Assembly: GCA_018660685.1 (NCBI GenBank)
Contig: JABJJW010000023.1
Coordinates: 62,001-126,000, forward strand
Direction of reading: 5' to 3'
Source of the DNA: Flavobacteriales bacterium
GTDB lineage: Bacteria; Bacteroidota; Bacteroidia; Flavobacteriales_G; Salibacteraceae
Length of the DNA: 64,000 nt
In this document: in pieces, positions 50,032 to 58,272 of the stretch
How positions within the stretch are numbered: position 1 is the stretch's first letter
How the letters are laid out: each line of letters begins with the position of its first letter
Notes under the pieces: model-generated
Told to the model about the DNA's origin: nothing
The model's database searches: none
The model's input: the letters and a program-made list of their open reading frames with translations, nothing else
Made by a program: the position numbers and the translations under genes

Positions 50032-50087
50032 GGCACCGAGCACAGATTCCTTTTGTAACTCACAAATTCTCACTAGAATTACCATTG

Positions 50088-51944
50088 ATGCTAATCACAA
50101 ATAATCCATTTCTAAAGCCGGTCTTGGGCGTTCTACTATGTCTCAGTTCCGGAATTTCAATCGCTCAGGGTTATTGGCAACAAGAAGTCGAATACGACAT
50201 CAATGTTGACTTCGATCATGTTTCCCACCAATTTGAAGGAGAACAAAATGTGAAATACACCAACAACTCCCCTGATACGCTCCATCAAGTCTTTTTTCAC
50301 TTGTATTTCAACGCTTTTCAACCTGGTAGCATGATGGATGCTCGCTCTCAATCCGTGGAAGATCCAGATCCAAGAATTGGTGACAGGATTAGTAAGCTCA
50401 AGGATGATGAAATTGGATATCACCGAGTCTCTAAATTGAAACAAGACGGCAAAAAGCTGGCCTACCAGGTAGTTGGAACCATAATGGAAGTCGATCTCTC
50501 GGAACCCATACTTCCAGGTAAGTCTACAGACTTCAGTATGGAGTACATTGCTCAAGTTCCGATACAAATCAGGAGAAGTGGCAGACACAACTTTGAAGGG
50601 ATAGACTACACCATGACACAGTGGTACCCAAAGCTGGCCGAGTATGATCGAGATGGATGGCACAGCAATCCATATGTGGGCCGAGAATTTCATGGAGTAT
50701 TTGGAACCTACAATGTCAAGATCACAATTGATTCGTCATTCACACTCGCCGGAACCGGTGTTGTACAAAATGTAAATGACGTAGGTCATGGATACTCTAC
50801 AAACAAGAAGGATTCGCCTCGACTTGAATGGCAGTTCACAGCGGAGAATGTCCATGATTTTGCATGGGCCGCGGATCCAGAGTACAGGCATTTGCGAACG
50901 ACCCTCGACAACGGAACTGTCGTTCGTTTTTTTCATCGAAACGACACGAATCTCAATGCCAATTGGCAGAAACTGATCCCATATACTGAGAAGATGTTCA
51001 AGATCATGAACGAAAAGTTTGGGGAGTATCCATATCCCGAATTCAGCGTGATCCAAGGCGGCGACGGAGGTATGGAGTATCCAATGTGCACGATGATCAC
51101 GACTTCTGGAACATTCAATGGACTGATTAGCGTGACCGTTCACGAAGCGATTCACAACTGGTATTACGGCGTCTTAGCCAGCAATGAACTTAAGTATCCG
51201 TGGATGGATGAAGGGTTCACCACATTTGCCCAGAATATTGTTTTGGATTCATTGCACCAGAAAGGAAAACAAAACAAGCATCAAAGAAGCTACAATGGTT
51301 ATATCCAGAATGCACGTTCTGGCAGAGAAGAACCTTTGACAACGCTTGCCGATAATTATCATTCAAACGGGGCGTACGGCGCCAATGCCTATTCAAAAGG
51401 ATGTTTGACTTTAGCCCACCTCGAGCATATTGTCGGAACAAAAGCCTTTTATAATGGCATGAAGAACTATTGGAATCTCTGGAAATTCAAGCATCCAACT
51501 CCTACCGACTTTAAAAGGTGCATTGAGAAGTCGAGCAGGATGGAACTTGATTGGTTCTTTGAATACTGGATCGGTACCACAAAGACAATCGACTACGAAA
51601 TTGGAAACGTTTTTTCATTTGAGAATAAGAGTGAAATTGAAATAAATAGGCTTGGCGGAATGCCCATGCCTATTGAGGTTTTAGTGGATCACGAAGGGAA
51701 GCAGCGCTACTATTACATCCCATTGGAAATCATGAGAGGTCAGCGGCAAATTCCAATCAACCGACAAAGCTCAATCTCAATTTTAGAAGACTGGCCGTAC
51801 ACCTATCCGACCTATGTCCTTAAGCTCGATTTTGCACTAGACGCTTCCTCACGAATCACGATTGATCCACAATCAGGGTTGGCGGATATCGACCGCGGGA
51901 ACAACGAATTTCCAAGAAGTAAAATTCAGTTTCATGGGGAATAA
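50088..51944 (+). CDS. M1-family metallopeptidase
   Basis: 618 residues from ATG 50088, with a signal peptide (LGVLLCLSSGISIAQG). Gluzincin aminopeptidase: the zinc motif HEAIHNWYYG with the second glutamate in WMDEGFTTFAQ is at about residues 350-380, and the M1 exopeptidase-type GGMEYP motif precedes it. The first 300 residues form the N-terminal beta domain (DINVDFDHVSHQFEGEQNVKYTNN). Exported, probably periplasmic peptide degradation. There is no C-terminal sorting domain. Confidence 0.93.
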   Translation: MLITNNPFLKPVLGVLLCLSSGISIAQGYWQQEVEYDINVDFDHVSHQFEGEQNVKYTNNSPDTLHQVFFHLYFNAFQPGSMMDARSQSVEDPDPRIGDRISKLKDDEIGYHRVSKLKQDGKKLAYQVVGTIMEVDLSEPILPGKSTDFSMEYIAQVPIQIRRSGRHNFEGIDYTMTQWYPKLAEYDRDGWHSNPYVGREFHGVFGTYNVKITIDSSFTLAGTGVVQNVNDVGHGYSTNKKDSPRLEWQFTAENVHDFAWAADPEYRHLRTTLDNGTVVRFFHRNDTNLNANWQKLIPYTEKMFKIMNEKFGEYPYPEFSVIQGGDGGMEYPMCTMITTSGTFNGLISVTVHEAIHNWYYGVLASNELKYPWMDEGFTTFAQNIVLDSLHQKGKQNKHQRSYNGYIQNARSGREEPLTTLADNYHSNGAYGANAYSKGCLTLAHLEHIVGTKAFYNGMKNYWNLWKFKHPTPTDFKRCIEKSSRMELDWFFEYWIGTTKTIDYEIGNVFSFENKSEIEINRLGGMPMPIEVLVDHEGKQRYYYIPLEIMRGQRQIPINRQSSISILEDWPYTYPTYVLKLDFALDASSRITIDPQSGLADIDRGNNEFPRSKIQFHGE

Positions 51945-52163: not shown

Positions 52164-52664
52164 ATGAAACATCAATTTACATCTATCATAGCTTCAGTCG
52201 CGTTGGTGGCTGGGCTATCGTTCAGCTCTTTTTCACAAGAGCTGGAAATACTAGGTAGTGCCGGAACAGAAGCTTCCTCAAGTGGAGCATCCATTAGTTA
52301 TACCGTTGGTGAACTAGTGGTAGAAACCGGCGTCTCCTCTTCGTCTGTGTTGACTCAAGGGTACCAACAAGGTTTCCTGACGCCAACAGCAATTGACGAA
52401 GTGCCATCAGAGTTGGAGCTTTCGCTTTATCCGAATCCAACTTCTGAATTCCTGATTATCGAGTCCGTTGACCTAAACAAGTTTGACCAAATCACGATGT
52501 ACGACATCAATGGCAAGCTTCTGTGGTCGGAAAACGGCAATTCTCATGTTGAAAACAGACTACGGGTGGATTTTACACCATATGCTGCGGGGAACTACAT
52601 ACTGAAGATGGTTGACAGCCAGAATCAGGAGAGTTACTCATACAGTGTTGTGAAATCCCATTAA
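52164..52664 (+). CDS. Small T9SS-sorted secreted protein
   Basis: 166 residues from ATG 52164 with a signal peptide (SIIASVALVAGLSFSSFSQ). The middle has the repeat-like segment GTEASSSGASISYTVGELVVETG typical of short Bacteroidota cargo proteins. The last 75 residues are a Por secretion-system type A sorting domain (LELSLYPNPTSEFLIIESVD, MYDINGKLL, AAGNYILKM), so it should leave the cell by T9SS and be anchored or released. The stop codon lies only about 3 bases before coding sequence of the truncated fibre protein in another frame. Confidence 0.88.
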   Translation: MKHQFTSIIASVALVAGLSFSSFSQELEILGSAGTEASSSGASISYTVGELVVETGVSSSSVLTQGYQQGFLTPTAIDEVPSELELSLYPNPTSEFLIIESVDLNKFDQITMYDINGKLLWSENGNSHVENRLRVDFTPYAAGNYILKMVDSQNQESYSYSVVKSH

Positions 52665-52749
52665 AGTTGGAGTTGGAACAGATGAGCCAGCAGCGAACCT
52701 CAACGTAAAAGGTTCATTCGTTGATCCTGACAATGCAAGTGGAGCATTA

Positions 52750-54429
52750 ATGATTGGTGATGTTGACAGCGCTCATCTTGCAATGGACGGTAACGACATC
52801 CTTGCGAAGTACGGCGCAGATTCTGCTGATCGTGTTTACCTACAACGAAGAGGTAAGTTGAGTATTGGTAATTGGGACCACACACAATACAAGGCAATAT
52901 TTGCTACTGATTCCAACGACTACCAAGGTGGATATGGTGGAATCTTTAACTACCGATATTACCCCCAAGGAGAACATGGCTGGGCCGCGATGTACAACTT
53001 TAATAATGCGTCTTCAGGAGGTTCGAATACGTTCGGGGTTATCAATATAAACCAGAACTCAGACAGTACTGATTTTGGAACGTACAATTTCAACTATGGG
53101 AATGGTTATGGCAACTCTTATGGAACCTATAACGATTTGATGTACTCTGCTGACAGCGCTTTTGGAACGTACAATTCCGTGGCTAACCCGACCACAAATA
53201 GTTTCGGAGTATATAATAAACTGAAGTCTGATAACTACTATAACCACTACGGGGTGTACACTCAAGTTGACAGCACGTACTATGGTTATGGTACATACAA
53301 CGATTTGGATGAAGGAACGTATCAATACGGCACCTATAATAACATGTGGGATGCTAATTCGTATGCCTACGGTAATTACAATAACATCTACTATCCTTAC
53401 TATGGTTATGGTAATTATTCAAGGATTTACTATCCCAACTACGGATATGGTTCTTACAATTATGTCTATTATCCGACGTATTCTGGTTATGGAACATACA
53501 ACTACGTAGCAGCTTCTAACGGTTATGGCCAATATGGAATTTACAATTATGTTAACCAAAACAGCACCGGCCAAGCTATGGGAATGTATAACTATACACG
53601 AGGCTCCGGTTATGTCTATGGTTTGGATAACTCTGTCTATGGTTATGGTACCTACGGTAACTTGTATGCTGTAGATAACTACACATACGCATCAGGTACT
53701 GCGAGTGGCTATACCGCCTATGGAACCTACAACAGAACTTACAACTATAGATCGGGCTATTCCGCGTACAATTATGGTCTTTACAACTACACGTACTCTG
53801 CAAACGGAACCTACAATTACAACTATGGGTTGTACAATTATTCATATACAGGGTCCGGTACGTACAGATATAATTATGCATTGTATTCATACGCCGGCGG
53901 AGGTACCATTGTGAACTCAGCTGGGTACTTCGTGGGAGCAGTATATTCAACTGGGGGTTATACTTCCTCTGATAGAAATATCAAAAAGAATATAGCCGAC
54001 TATGACGGTGCGCTTGGCGATGTCATGCAGCTCAGAGCTAGGACCTACGAATTCGATCTTGAAAACAATCCGACGATGGGCCTACCTGAGGAAGGTCAAA
54101 TCGGTGTGATTGCGCAAGAATTAGAAACCGTATTTCCAGAGCTTGTCAAGACGATGATCAACCCTAAGGTTCGTCTTGGTGAAGGGGCAGCGCGTGAGCA
54201 GGGATTAAAATTCACGATAATTGAAGAGGCTCAGTACGATGATGAAGGAAATCTTGAGAAAGAAGCTCAAGTGGAAGCAGGTGAAGAACTTGAATTCAAG
54301 GCTGTAAACTATGACGGTTTGATTCCCGTCCTTATAAAGGCTACACAAGAACAGCAAGAGATTATAGAATCTCAAAATGCTACAATCGACACGCTGATTC
54401 AGCGAATCGAAGCTCTTGAGAACAATTAA
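52750..54429 (+). CDS. Fibre-like protein with Tyr/Gly/Asn repeats and S74 chaperone domain, 5' truncated
   Basis: 559 residues from ATG 52750, but the same frame is coding-like upstream to 52654 (VGVGTDEPAANLNVKG), where an in-frame stop lies inside the preceding gene; there is no signal peptide. The paralogue at 55880 has about 285 more N-terminal residues, so this gene has lost its 5' part. Residues about 100-385 are repeats of about 15 residues with GTYN or GNYN at their core, probably a trimeric beta-stalk. From about 405 comes an S74 intramolecular chaperone (SSDRNIKKNIADYDGAL, GQIGVIAQELETVFPELV), ending in a coiled coil. Expression and export are doubtful. Confidence 0.75.
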   Translation: MIGDVDSAHLAMDGNDILAKYGADSADRVYLQRRGKLSIGNWDHTQYKAIFATDSNDYQGGYGGIFNYRYYPQGEHGWAAMYNFNNASSGGSNTFGVININQNSDSTDFGTYNFNYGNGYGNSYGTYNDLMYSADSAFGTYNSVANPTTNSFGVYNKLKSDNYYNHYGVYTQVDSTYYGYGTYNDLDEGTYQYGTYNNMWDANSYAYGNYNNIYYPYYGYGNYSRIYYPNYGYGSYNYVYYPTYSGYGTYNYVAASNGYGQYGIYNYVNQNSTGQAMGMYNYTRGSGYVYGLDNSVYGYGTYGNLYAVDNYTYASGTASGYTAYGTYNRTYNYRSGYSAYNYGLYNYTYSANGTYNYNYGLYNYSYTGSGTYRYNYALYSYAGGGTIVNSAGYFVGAVYSTGGYTSSDRNIKKNIADYDGALGDVMQLRARTYEFDLENNPTMGLPEEGQIGVIAQELETVFPELVKTMINPKVRLGEGAAREQGLKFTIIEEAQYDDEGNLEKEAQVEAGEELEFKAVNYDGLIPVLIKATQEQQEIIESQNATIDTLIQRIEALENN

Positions 54430-54450
54430 TTAACGAGCACCCATTTTTGA

Positions 54451-54478
54451 AAAGCGCTCCATTTGGGGCGCTTTTTTT
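54451..54478 (+). terminator. Rho-independent terminator after the first S74 gene
   Basis: 10-bp stem with G-T pairing (54451-54460 with 54465-54474), 4-base loop, T-rich tail to 54478. Confidence 0.88.
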
Positions 54479-54496
54479 ATTTGGCCATATTTGAAT

Positions 54497-55774
54497 ATGC
54501 GCACGCTCATTTTTCTTGCCTTATTTCCCATATCACTATTCGCCCAAGTCCCTACCAATGTGATTATCTATGAGGAAGAAGAGGAAGAATACGCGCCTTG
54601 TGAGCCGAGCATTGCCGTGCACCCAAATGATCCGTCCATCGTGGTTGGAGCTGCGGTGCTTGACTACATTTTTACTTCCTCCGATTCCGGGCAAACCTGG
54701 AATGTAGATCGTAACGAATCACCTCATGGAGTCTATGGCGATCCTTGCATTGTCACTGATGCAAAGGGCAATTTTTATCACCTACATCTAAGCAATCCCT
54801 CTGGAGAAGGATGGGAAAATCCAGACATCCTTGATCGTATCGTTTGTCAACGCAGTGAAGACAATGGAAAATCTTGGACAGAAGGCGGCAGCATTGGCCT
54901 TAATCATCCGAAAGATCAAGATAAAGAATGGGCTGTGTACAGTGCTGAAAATGGACATTTGGTTGCTTCCTGGACTCAATTTGACGAATACGGAAACTCC
55001 ACTCCAGAATGTTTTTCAAACATCCTCTTCAGTTGGTCCTCTAACGGAGATGAGTGGTCAGAACCCGTTCAAATTAATGAACATTCAGGCAACTGTATTG
55101 ACAACAGTGGTACTACAGAGGGAGCGGTTCCCGCTGCTGGACCAGACTCTGAAATCTACATCAGCTGGGCAGTGAACGGAAAAATTTACTTCGATCTTCT
55201 TGCTTGGGATGGAGAGAAGTATGATCAATTACAGTATGATGTCGAAGTCGTTTCGGACAACGCCAATTGGGATTTTGAGATCCCCGGATTAGGCAGGGCA
55301 AACGGCATGCCCATTACAGACTGTGACTTGAGTGGTAAAGAACATCAAGGAAGGATATACATCAACTGGGCAGATCAAAGGAATGGAGATGATGACACGG
55401 ACATCTGGTTGGCATATTCTGATGACAAGGGTGGTTCATGGACAGATCCAATTCGGGTCAATGATGACAATCCCGGAAGACATCAATTCTTTACGTGGAT
55501 GGACATAGATCAGAGTACCGGATATATCTACATTGTGTTCTATGACCGCCGACACTACAAGGATAATCGGACGGATGTGTACTTAGCAGTCAGCAAAGAC
55601 GGGGGTGACTCATTTGAAAATCGTGTGATAAGTGAAACTCCCTTTTCCCCGCCCAAGAAGAAATTCTTTGGAGATTACAATAATATCTCTGCGGTGAATG
55701 GTGTAGTACGGCCGATTTGGACCCATCATGAAAAAGATAAGCTCAGCGTCAGGACGGCCTTGATCAACGAGTAA
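54497..55774 (+). CDS. Secreted BNR/Asp-box repeat protein (sialidase-like fold)
   Basis: 425 residues from ATG 54497; signal peptide MRTLIFLALFPISLFAQ. At least five Asp boxes (S-x-D-x-G-x-x-W) are visible: SSDSGQTW, SEDNGKSW, SSNGDEW, SDDKGGSW and SKDGGDSF, spread over six propeller blades. The FRIP arginine motif of sialidases is not seen and the catalytic Tyr/Glu pair cannot be identified, so enzymatic sialidase activity is not supported; it is a secreted beta-propeller. It lies between the two S74 fibre genes and could be a surface or glycan-binding partner. No T9SS tail. Confidence 0.82.
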   Translation: MRTLIFLALFPISLFAQVPTNVIIYEEEEEEYAPCEPSIAVHPNDPSIVVGAAVLDYIFTSSDSGQTWNVDRNESPHGVYGDPCIVTDAKGNFYHLHLSNPSGEGWENPDILDRIVCQRSEDNGKSWTEGGSIGLNHPKDQDKEWAVYSAENGHLVASWTQFDEYGNSTPECFSNILFSWSSNGDEWSEPVQINEHSGNCIDNSGTTEGAVPAAGPDSEIYISWAVNGKIYFDLLAWDGEKYDQLQYDVEVVSDNANWDFEIPGLGRANGMPITDCDLSGKEHQGRIYINWADQRNGDDDTDIWLAYSDDKGGSWTDPIRVNDDNPGRHQFFTWMDIDQSTGYIYIVFYDRRHYKDNRTDVYLAVSKDGGDSFENRVISETPFSPPKKKFFGDYNNISAVNGVVRPIWTHHEKDKLSVRTALINE

Positions 55775-55879: not shown

Positions 55880-58102
55880 ATGAAAAAACTGATTACCGTA
55901 CTATGTACACTGACCTTTGTTGTGCTCGGGGCCATGGCTCAAAGCCCAGCAAAATTTAACTATCAAGCAGTTGCTCGCGATGCCAATGGCGCCCTCCTTG
56001 ACAACACTTCTGTAGGAATCAAGATTAGCATCCTTCAAGGATCCTCTTCAGGCACTGAAGTTTATTCTGAAGAACATACGCCTTCAACAAATGACTTTGG
56101 ACTGTTCAATCTTCAAGTTGGAGCGGGTAACAATGTCAGTGGCGACCTCGAAACAATTGATTGGGCAGGTGACAGTTATTACCTCCAAGTTGAATTTGAT
56201 GAAGCTGGAGGAACGAGCTACTCTCTCATGAGTTCATCGGAACTGGTCTCAGTTCCATATGCTCTGCTTGCCTCGAATGTTGCCAATGACAGTGTTTTGG
56301 ACGATGACGGCGATCCGATGAATGAAATGCAAACGCTGATGTTGATGAATGACACCTTATCCCTATCAGGAGGCGGCGGGGTTGACTTGAGCGGATACGA
56401 TCAAAGTGCTGAGATATCGACAAATTCATTGGCGATCGATAGCCTTGGAGATGAAATTGACACCGTTGCCTTGGATCTGGCGGATCACATAAACATGGAC
56501 TTTGACATTGACACAACCAATGAGTTGATTACTGGACTTGCGCTCGACAATGACTCGACCCTGACGATTACGGAAGCTGGAACTGACTTCGATGTAGACT
56601 TGAGTGCCCTTATCGATGATGACGATTGGGCTAGAATGGATGACAGCACGATTTACAACACTACCGACAACATTGGAGTAGGCACGGAAGACCCTGAAGC
56701 CAAACTTCATCTGCTCGGAGATATGGTCATTGGTCATCCGGACAGCGCACATATACTTTATGACAGCAATCAAGTCCAAGCTATGAATGGCTCCGATGAT
56801 GGCTCTTTGTGGTTGCAATACGGTGGCAAACTCAACATAGGGAAGTTCTTCTACGATCCTTCGAAAGTCATGCTAACGGCCGATTCAGGGATGGGTCTGG
56901 TAGTGTATCGCGATCAAGCAAATGGATGGAATGGAACCTATGGAAACGGAGTTTACATCTATGATGATCAATCGACAGCATCAGTAACTAATGGTTTAGT
57001 TTCAGAATTGTATGCGCCTACTAACCTCGCTCGTGCTCAATGGAATTTGATGTCGTACATGGGTGGAGACGGCTACGGAATGCACACGCAAATGGCTTAT
57101 AGCACTGGAGACATGTTCGGAATCATCAATGATTTAGACTATACGACAGGCAGCGCTTATGGCGTGTTCAATGACATACAGAATTCATCTGGGATTGGTT
57201 ATGGTATTTACAACTACATATTAACGAGCAACGCATCCCCTCAATATGGAACAAGAAACTATACGAGAAATAGTAGCACCGGGCCAGTATATGGAGCATA
57301 CAATTTTGGTCAAGGGTCAGGTCCGACATACGGTGTCTTCAACTATGCATTTCAAACGGGTTCCTTGACAACTTCAATCATGTATGGTGCGTACAGCCGC
57401 GCAAGTAATTCTAGTTCTAGCACCACAAAAACGACCTATGCAACCTACAACTATGGTCAAAGCGTAAGTGGTGGAACATCTTATGTCTACGGTTCATATA
57501 ACACAACTGCCAACTCGGCGACCACGGCATTTACATACGGTGTTTACAGCGAAGCAACCGGTGGAACAGCCTATGCGGGATACTTCAGTGGATCAGTTTA
57601 CTCCACAGTTGGCTTTACGACTTCCGATGCAAAATTCAAGACGAACGTTCAGGATCTTGGATCGGGCATTAGCACAGTGATGAGCCTAAAGCCTAGAACG
57701 TACTCATTTAAGACCGATGAGTATAGCATGATGGGATTACCACAGGGTGAACAAATTGGTCTGCTCGCCCAGGAACTTGAAGACGTCATTCCTTTTCTCG
57801 TAAAGGAAACGCACCAACCCGCCCGAATTATTCCCGAATCAAGAGCGGTTCAAGAACGTCTTGATTTCGAGGTGGTGGAAGATGCCATATTGAATGAGGC
57901 CGGTGAGGTGGACAAAGAGGCGATGGTTAAAGTAAGTGACGGAATAGATTTCAAAGCCATCAACTACGAAGGCCTAATACCTGTACTTATCCTCGCTACT
58001 CAGGAGCAGCAAGAACTTATTGATCTTCAAAATGAGCGGCTAGAATCTCAAGAAAGCGTGATCAGCGAATTACGTGATCGGGTTGACGCTCTCGAAAAGT
58101 AA
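55880..58102 (+). CDS. Secreted fibre-like protein with S74 intramolecular chaperone domain
   Basis: 740 residues. Signal peptide 1-20 (LITVLCTLTFVVLGAMA). Residues 22-135 form a conserved Bacteroidota N-terminal domain (SPAKFNYQAVARDANGALL, SVPYALLAS). An Asp/Ser-rich linker follows to about 265, then DNIGVGTEDPEAKLHLLG, and from about 330 to 570 repeats with GIYN/GVFN/GAYN cores. The S74 domain starts near 580 (TSDAKFKTNVQDL, GEQIGLLAQELEDVIPFLV), with the serine-lysine positions of the self-cleaving chaperone, and a C-terminal coiled coil (QNERLESQESVISELRDRV). S74 domains trimerise phage tail spikes and similar fibres and cleave themselves off. Intact counterpart of the 52750 gene. Confidence 0.88.
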   Translation: MKKLITVLCTLTFVVLGAMAQSPAKFNYQAVARDANGALLDNTSVGIKISILQGSSSGTEVYSEEHTPSTNDFGLFNLQVGAGNNVSGDLETIDWAGDSYYLQVEFDEAGGTSYSLMSSSELVSVPYALLASNVANDSVLDDDGDPMNEMQTLMLMNDTLSLSGGGGVDLSGYDQSAEISTNSLAIDSLGDEIDTVALDLADHINMDFDIDTTNELITGLALDNDSTLTITEAGTDFDVDLSALIDDDDWARMDDSTIYNTTDNIGVGTEDPEAKLHLLGDMVIGHPDSAHILYDSNQVQAMNGSDDGSLWLQYGGKLNIGKFFYDPSKVMLTADSGMGLVVYRDQANGWNGTYGNGVYIYDDQSTASVTNGLVSELYAPTNLARAQWNLMSYMGGDGYGMHTQMAYSTGDMFGIINDLDYTTGSAYGVFNDIQNSSGIGYGIYNYILTSNASPQYGTRNYTRNSSTGPVYGAYNFGQGSGPTYGVFNYAFQTGSLTTSIMYGAYSRASNSSSSTTKTTYATYNYGQSVSGGTSYVYGSYNTTANSATTAFTYGVYSEATGGTAYAGYFSGSVYSTVGFTTSDAKFKTNVQDLGSGISTVMSLKPRTYSFKTDEYSMMGLPQGEQIGLLAQELEDVIPFLVKETHQPARIIPESRAVQERLDFEVVEDAILNEAGEVDKEAMVKVSDGIDFKAINYEGLIPVLILATQEQQELIDLQNERLESQESVISELRDRVDALEK

Positions 58103-58187: not shown

Positions 58188-58188
58188 G

Positions 58189-58272
58189 TACCCGGGGCCG
58201 GGATCGAACCGGCACGATATTGCTATCACTGGATTTTGAATCCAGCGCGTCTACCAATTCCGCCACCCGGGC
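58189..58272 (-). tRNA. tRNA-Leu (anticodon CAA)
   Basis: 84-nt class II tRNA on the minus strand. Acceptor stem GCCCGGG pairs with CCCGGGT (first pair G-U), D arm contains AATTGGTAGACGC, the anticodon stem CTGGA/TCCAG encloses loop TTCAAAA with anticodon CAA (decodes UUG), a long variable arm follows, and the T arm is GCCGG-TTCGATC-CCGGC. The discriminator is A and CCA is not encoded. Promoter and terminator are both visible, so it is a single-gene unit. Confidence 0.95.

Follow-up and report, generated by a model that had tools for sequence, protein, structure and literature searches.

Gene content of the locus

The window, that is, the whole stretch of DNA that was analysed (64,000 nucleotides), is part of contig 23 of a 2.58-Mb assembly (G000; 28 contigs, 96% complete). 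In this stretch, a small gene for a T9SS-sorted protein abuts the frame of an S74 fibre that lacks its N-terminal part. The two stand between a peptidase gene and a BNR-repeat gene, and an intact paralogous fibre gene follows. The features are:

50085–51944, + strand: peptidase, which we take to be of family M1; left neighbour, present in 12/12 named loci (the peptidase being the search query)
52164–52664, + strand: T9SS-sorted small protein of 166 aa, intact to its usual last residue (YSVVKSH); from PF18962, TIGR04183 and alignment to relatives
52654–54429, + strand: anchorless S74 fibre frame with tip, YGTYN repeats and S74 chaperone, and no ATG, GTG or TTG before 52750; from PF13884 (3.6e-12), the list of open reading frames (ORFs) and alignments
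52661–52667, + strand: junction, the TAA of the T9SS gene followed directly by the fibre frame; from the sequence, alignments and uniqueness in the genome
52666–52701, + strand: capping-loop-like motif VGVGTDEPAANL, the anchor/tip boundary; from the sequence, likeness to the motif of MAT fibres and the conservation change nearby in intact fibres
53968–54150, + strand: S74 domain with SDxxxK motif (SDRNIK); from the sequence and Pfam
54448–54480, + strand: putative terminator-like hairpin 3' of the fragment; seen by eye in the sequence
54491–55774, + strand: BNR-repeat protein, right neighbour; from Pfam BNR_2 and synteny
55880–58102, + strand: intact paralogous fibre with signal peptide, MAT_N-like anchor, stalk, tip and S74; from Pfam, NCBIfam and alignments

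The T9SS-sorted gene runs from the ATG at 52164 to the TAA at 52662-52664. Its product matches Pfam Por_Secre_tail (PF18962, 2.4e-10) and carries a C-terminal sorting domain, a trait of T9SS type A cargo (TIGR04183, 38.3 bits at a cut-off of 23). Residues 84-164 are predicted to form beta strands; the N-terminal half gave no confident structure prediction, and the model is therefore uninformative on the idea, taken up below, that the protein is a partner of the fibre. In the alignment, the protein ends at the same residue as six relatives, all seven being alike, and it shares 50-63% identity with the same-locus T9SS gene in seven genomes of the genus.

From 52654 to its stop at 54429, the fibre frame reads on without interruption (591 codons). 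By the ORF list and the sequence, the in-frame stop upstream of it is a TGA at 52651-52653, which sits within the T9SS gene in a different frame from the T9SS reading; an earlier sequence-only reading of this DNA, which had let the open frame begin at about 52654, was right to a few bases. The first start codon is the ATG at 52750, with no ATG, GTG or TTG ahead of it in this frame (ORF list). The codon score for 52654-52749 is +0.19 in the fibre frame and -0.49 and -1.25 in the other two, in line with the coding-like character that had been claimed for the sequence before this ATG. Alignment places the beginning of homology to intact fibres at 52666, with the residues VGVGT (GVGTxxP motif; K/W-VGVGT), and finds none upstream. 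From 52666 on, the fragment aligns over its whole length with the intact fibres of two relatives (G007 and G009) at 44-45% identity, its residue 1 pairing with both. The four residues ahead of VGVGT, NPIK, are T9SS-gene sequence read in the other frame, the K possibly being shared, and the gap between the T9SS stop codon and the start of fibre homology is 0-1 bp.

The signal peptide and N-terminal domain, both MAT traits, are missing from the fragment, in which homology starts only at the tip motif; compared with the intact paralogue, it lacks ~264 codons, those for signal peptide, anchor and stalk. The missing anchor was sought elsewhere in G000; the search gave a single MAT_N match and no additional fibre. 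These alignments support the reading of the frame as a fibre fragment that has lost its 5' part at a precise junction. The 591-codon frame is free of decay. The fragment has neither a signal peptide nor a start codon where it joins the T9SS gene, so that in its present form it cannot yield a surface fibre; this cell would obtain its surface fibre from the intact paralogue at 55880.

Position of the cut at the anchor/tip boundary of the fibre

The intact fibre has ~264 residues before the tip motif and ~280 before the position of ATG 52750, in agreement with the signal peptide and "about 285 extra residues" of the sequence-only reading. Its signal peptide, read by eye, is followed by a domain of ~90 aa that matches MAT_N (NF053851, E 5.2e-9) at 36 bits, below the cut-off of 60. 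This domain is predicted to be beta-rich and to lead into a coiled coil, with a mean pLDDT of only 63.7. The anchor model had no match in the PDB at E <= 0.001, nor was any found by sequence, and a plasmid collection gave one weak match, to the N-terminus of the intact fibre. Both fibres end in an S74 domain (PF13884; 3.6e-12 with SDRNIK in the fragment, 3.8e-11 with SDAKFK in the paralogue), and they share ~41% amino acid identity. At the boundary their DNA differs and no long DNA repeat links them; on these grounds, the idea was rejected that the anchor had recently been duplicated and its copies had then collapsed into one. The paralogue sits between the BNR protein and a tRNA-Leu, beyond which lies an enzyme that is presumably a ribose-phosphate pyrophosphokinase. 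The tRNA-Leu (caa; window 58188-58272, - strand) lies between the intact fibre and this next gene, and a listed ORF of 122 aa across it is spurious.

Conservation along the fibre was compared among six fibres of the genus that are intact or almost so (15 pairs); for G009, the two frames were joined end to end. In 14 of the 15 pairs the tip was less conserved than the anchor, and in all 15 it was less conserved than the S74 domain. The strongest single change point lay within 15 residues of the motif in 8/15 pairs, most clearly in G003-G012, where conservation drops from 0.88 to 0.51 at +4 residues; in 7/15 pairs it lay more than 15 residues away, some of these change points being weak or distant, and the pairs share sequences and are not independent. 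For G007-G009 it fell at +168 residues, inside the YGTYN repeats. The cut in the fragment coincides with this anchor/tip module boundary.

The YGTYN-repeat tip at the locus is also far more divergent than its flanks at the DNA level (L126 13246-13800 against L127; L131 against L132), with identity between G007 and G009 down to 0.47 in the tip and 0.85-0.96 in the flanks. Such divergence of the tip would be as expected of a fast-changing binding surface.

Gene order in relatives

The 12 named relatives with the locus are all metagenome-assembled genomes (MAGs) from the Flavobacteriales, of which two are listed under Salibacteraceae. In six, the M1-type peptidase is followed by a fibre gene and then a T9SS gene, after which comes the BNR protein or the end of the contig; the other six loci are empty, with the peptidase directly beside the BNR protein. 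Comparison with relatives, in which the sequence-only reading had hoped to find an intact first copy, thus gave the order fibre then T9SS gene at 6/6 occupied named loci, whereas the window has the T9SS gene first and the fibre fragment behind it. One contig of G010 carries fibre, T9SS gene and BNR gene, the part that was read having no peptidase. In its C-terminal part, the fragment is 50-58% identical to the same-locus fibres of relatives.

Because the relatives have the fibre first and both window parts are closest to the genes of that locus, the gene order has changed besides the loss of the anchor, and a single simple deletion is insufficient to explain the window. The precise deletion that had been suggested as the joint between the T9SS gene and the middle of the fibre gene therefore holds in part: the 5' loss and the precise junction stand, but a simple deletion fits only if a T9SS-then-fibre order came first, the opposite of what all six relatives show. 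If that order did come first, a deletion inside such a pair would be the simplest real event.

A comparison by script of listed coordinates in 35 genomes of the family (G000 and 34 others) bears on this point. A small T9SS-sorted gene directly before a MAT_N-like fibre gene is a recurring pair there: 49 of the 69 typed T9SS rows have a MAT_N-like anchor next on the same strand within 700 bp, mostly at 33-160 bp. Of the S74 rows (74 listed, 62 typed), 13 of the typed ones have a T9SS gene in front, and the anchor is present in 12 of these 13 and absent only from the window fragment, which is thus the exception. Since the T9SS-then-fibre order is common in the family, the window may derive from such a pair, its anchorless state being peculiar to it.

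The T9SS and fibre frames stand in a +1 relation and the fibre frame is open, a constellation that would allow expression through a +1 shift at CAT-TAA-A, as the sequence-only reading had offered as an alternative, or a shorter, functional protein in the cytoplasm that starts at ATG 52750 or ATT 52660. We consider this highly improbable. A T9SS sorting domain has to be C-terminal, and a +1 shift would place it in mid-protein; the T9SS gene, as in its six aligned relatives, ends at its usual residue, and all other typed T9SS-preceded S74 fibres of the family have an anchor of their own. The arrangement is found in no relative, and a conserved overlap or shift site is absent. Homologues of the same short form, which the sequence-only reading had named as a possible objection to a lost 5' end, did not turn up in a search of 13 genomes from the genus and 42 from the order, and a fibre without signal peptide would remain in the cytoplasm.

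A second anchorless S74 fibre was seen at the same locus in G001 (L085 / L135), ~130 bp after the peptidase gene; this MAG is 78% complete and has no anchor elsewhere. It was rejected as a case of the same short form: it begins inside the YGTYN repeats, unlike the window fragment. Another observation concerns the BNR gene, of which G010 appears to have two copies (L082 6182-7477 and L128 11851-12996), with an identity of just 64%, one of them next to the peptidase and the other following the fibre–T9SS pair. The two being divergent and one standing with the pair, the BNR gene may travel with it.

A probable silent remnant or a possible assembly artefact

We lean, by a modest degree, towards the reading that the fragment is a real, silent, anchorless remnant (an "orphan tip") of a gene for a MAT-like, presumably trimeric S74 fibre. 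A recombination event where the anchor and tip modules meet would have placed the tip directly behind the stop codon of its T9SS-sorted partner and taken away the signal peptide, anchor and stalk. Several features of the sequence argue for this. The edges are meaningful on both sides, as the junction lies 0-1 bp after an intact T9SS stop codon and at the capping-loop motif. The outer flanks look natural, with 219 bp from the M1 stop to the T9SS ATG on the left and, on the right, the hairpin and then the BNR gene. There is no N in the window, and no repeat in the window or the assembly to explain a misjoin: the 14-mers of 52640-52760 do not recur within the window, the 22-base junction sequence has no second occurrence in the genome with up to 3 mismatches, and no mobile element or repeat was found at the junction. 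We infer that the junction exists in the organism as it does in the assembly, that recombination produced it and that the remnant is silent.

Other points count against a remnant. The junction is known from one assembly of the species, the undecayed frame fits a very recent event and an artefact equally well, and, starting from the order typical of the genus, the changed order and the truncation together need more than one event. A multi-strain assembly would also branch at module boundaries.

The main rival is accordingly an assembly artefact, in which strains share anchor and T9SS sequences and differ in their tips, and the end of the T9SS gene was linked to one tip during assembly or gap closing, with loss of the anchor. 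We regard this as possible and the less probable of the two. The named relatives with the locus are MAGs without exception, and in G000 the one 16S rRNA gene that was found breaks off at a contig end, as happens in short-read assemblies. Fibres of this locus are broken in other MAGs as well (N gaps in G005, a frame break into 237 + 606 aa in G009, a 5' truncation in G001), a fibre split over two frames occurs outside the genus in G034, and the tip divergence among relatives suggests that strain graphs branch near the boundary. Against this, the junction has neither N nor a repeated k-mer, and an artefact must also account for the changed order on the M1 side and for the hairpin behind the fragment. 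Branching assembly graphs usually leave k-mer overlaps or broken contigs and rarely seamless joins, and the seamless join at this junction is, by such general knowledge, unlike their usual outcome.

Among the contigs of relatives, the break in the G009 fibre (L126 12600-12660; frames of 237 and 606 aa) lies in the stalk, where G007 reads through. In G003, the same region is found on two contig ends (L080 at the start of C5, L088 at the end of C4) with 95% identity; on one of these ends the T9SS gene contains stops and the BNR gene is broken, and the two may be strain variants, or this one an error-rich contig end.

A real remnant would show the place at which such fibre genes break and recombine and would offer, in bacteria that are not predators, a concrete site for testing tip swapping. 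An artefact would be a warning that such genes in MAGs need checking against the reads before they are called pseudogenes.

Comparison with known systems

Orphan cdiA-CT modules sit behind a boundary motif and have no start codon (PMC3150448). The fragment resembles these and rhs cassettes in being a 3' module that starts at the boundary motif of the variable end, without a start codon and with an open frame. By this analogy, a displaced tip might be kept as a reservoir that can be reloaded onto an anchor, which we think unlikely. The route would be a cassette of new tip, S74 and T9SS gene that was inserted into an older fibre at its tip boundary, so that the former tip came to lie behind the T9SS gene, a course of events of similarly low probability. 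Given the fibre-then-T9SS order of the relatives, cassette entry accounts for a T9SS gene that abuts a tip without spacer, and tip swapping has been proposed for MAT fibres (PMC10769870). However, the displacing fibre, expected before the T9SS gene, is absent, and the case is the single one among the 13 T9SS-preceded S74 fibres of the family. The fragment also differs from the orphans in that it is not a toxin, has no immunity gene, occurs as a single copy and shows no recombination tract; it lies upstream of the intact fibre, whereas CDI orphans lie downstream of the full gene, and it shares with that fibre no boundary DNA and only the ~41% identity given above. Flavobacterial MAT-like fibres might diversify by tip swaps at the capping-loop boundary, the window holding a start-less tip and S74 module parked behind the T9SS partner gene and loadable onto a fibre anchor; this wider reading, too, we think unlikely.

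With phage Peptidase_S74 tail fibres (PF13884) the fragment shares the C-terminal S74 domain with SDxxxK, and both PHROG tail-fibre profiles and a solved phage fibre (6f45) match. It differs from them in having no match in 50,697 phage records (tblastn) and in lying among chromosomal genes that are conserved in relatives, and a phage origin of the locus was rejected on these two grounds. The junction had no match in viral contigs, and an initial scan of genome contigs with the fragment as query returned no relatives.

Within the open-licence literature, no paper combined all terms for a pair of T9SS-sorted gene and fibre in Bacteroidota, and looser searches there led to the MAT fibres of Bdellovibrio and to contractile injection systems. 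The MAT fibres of Bdellovibrio bacteriovorus are described with a capping-loop motif, diverse tips on a constant N-terminal domain and a mention of tip swapping (PMC10769870). Compared with that description, the intact paralogue appears to have the same build, namely a signal peptide, a conserved domain right after it, a stalk, a capping-loop-like tip motif and S74, and the start of the fragment, VGVGTDEPAANL, resembles the MAT capping-loop motif (PMC10769870). The differences are that the MAT_N match of the paralogue, at 36 bits, stays below the cut-off of 60, that the fragment has no anchor, and that the host of the window is a flavobacterium with relatives in Salibacteraceae and a T9SS-sorted gene beside the fibre. 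The MAT work leaves the surface partner of the anchor domain open (PMC10769870). The T9SS protein could be such a partner, and its pairing with a MAT-like fibre is a lead to the surface partner of the anchor domain.
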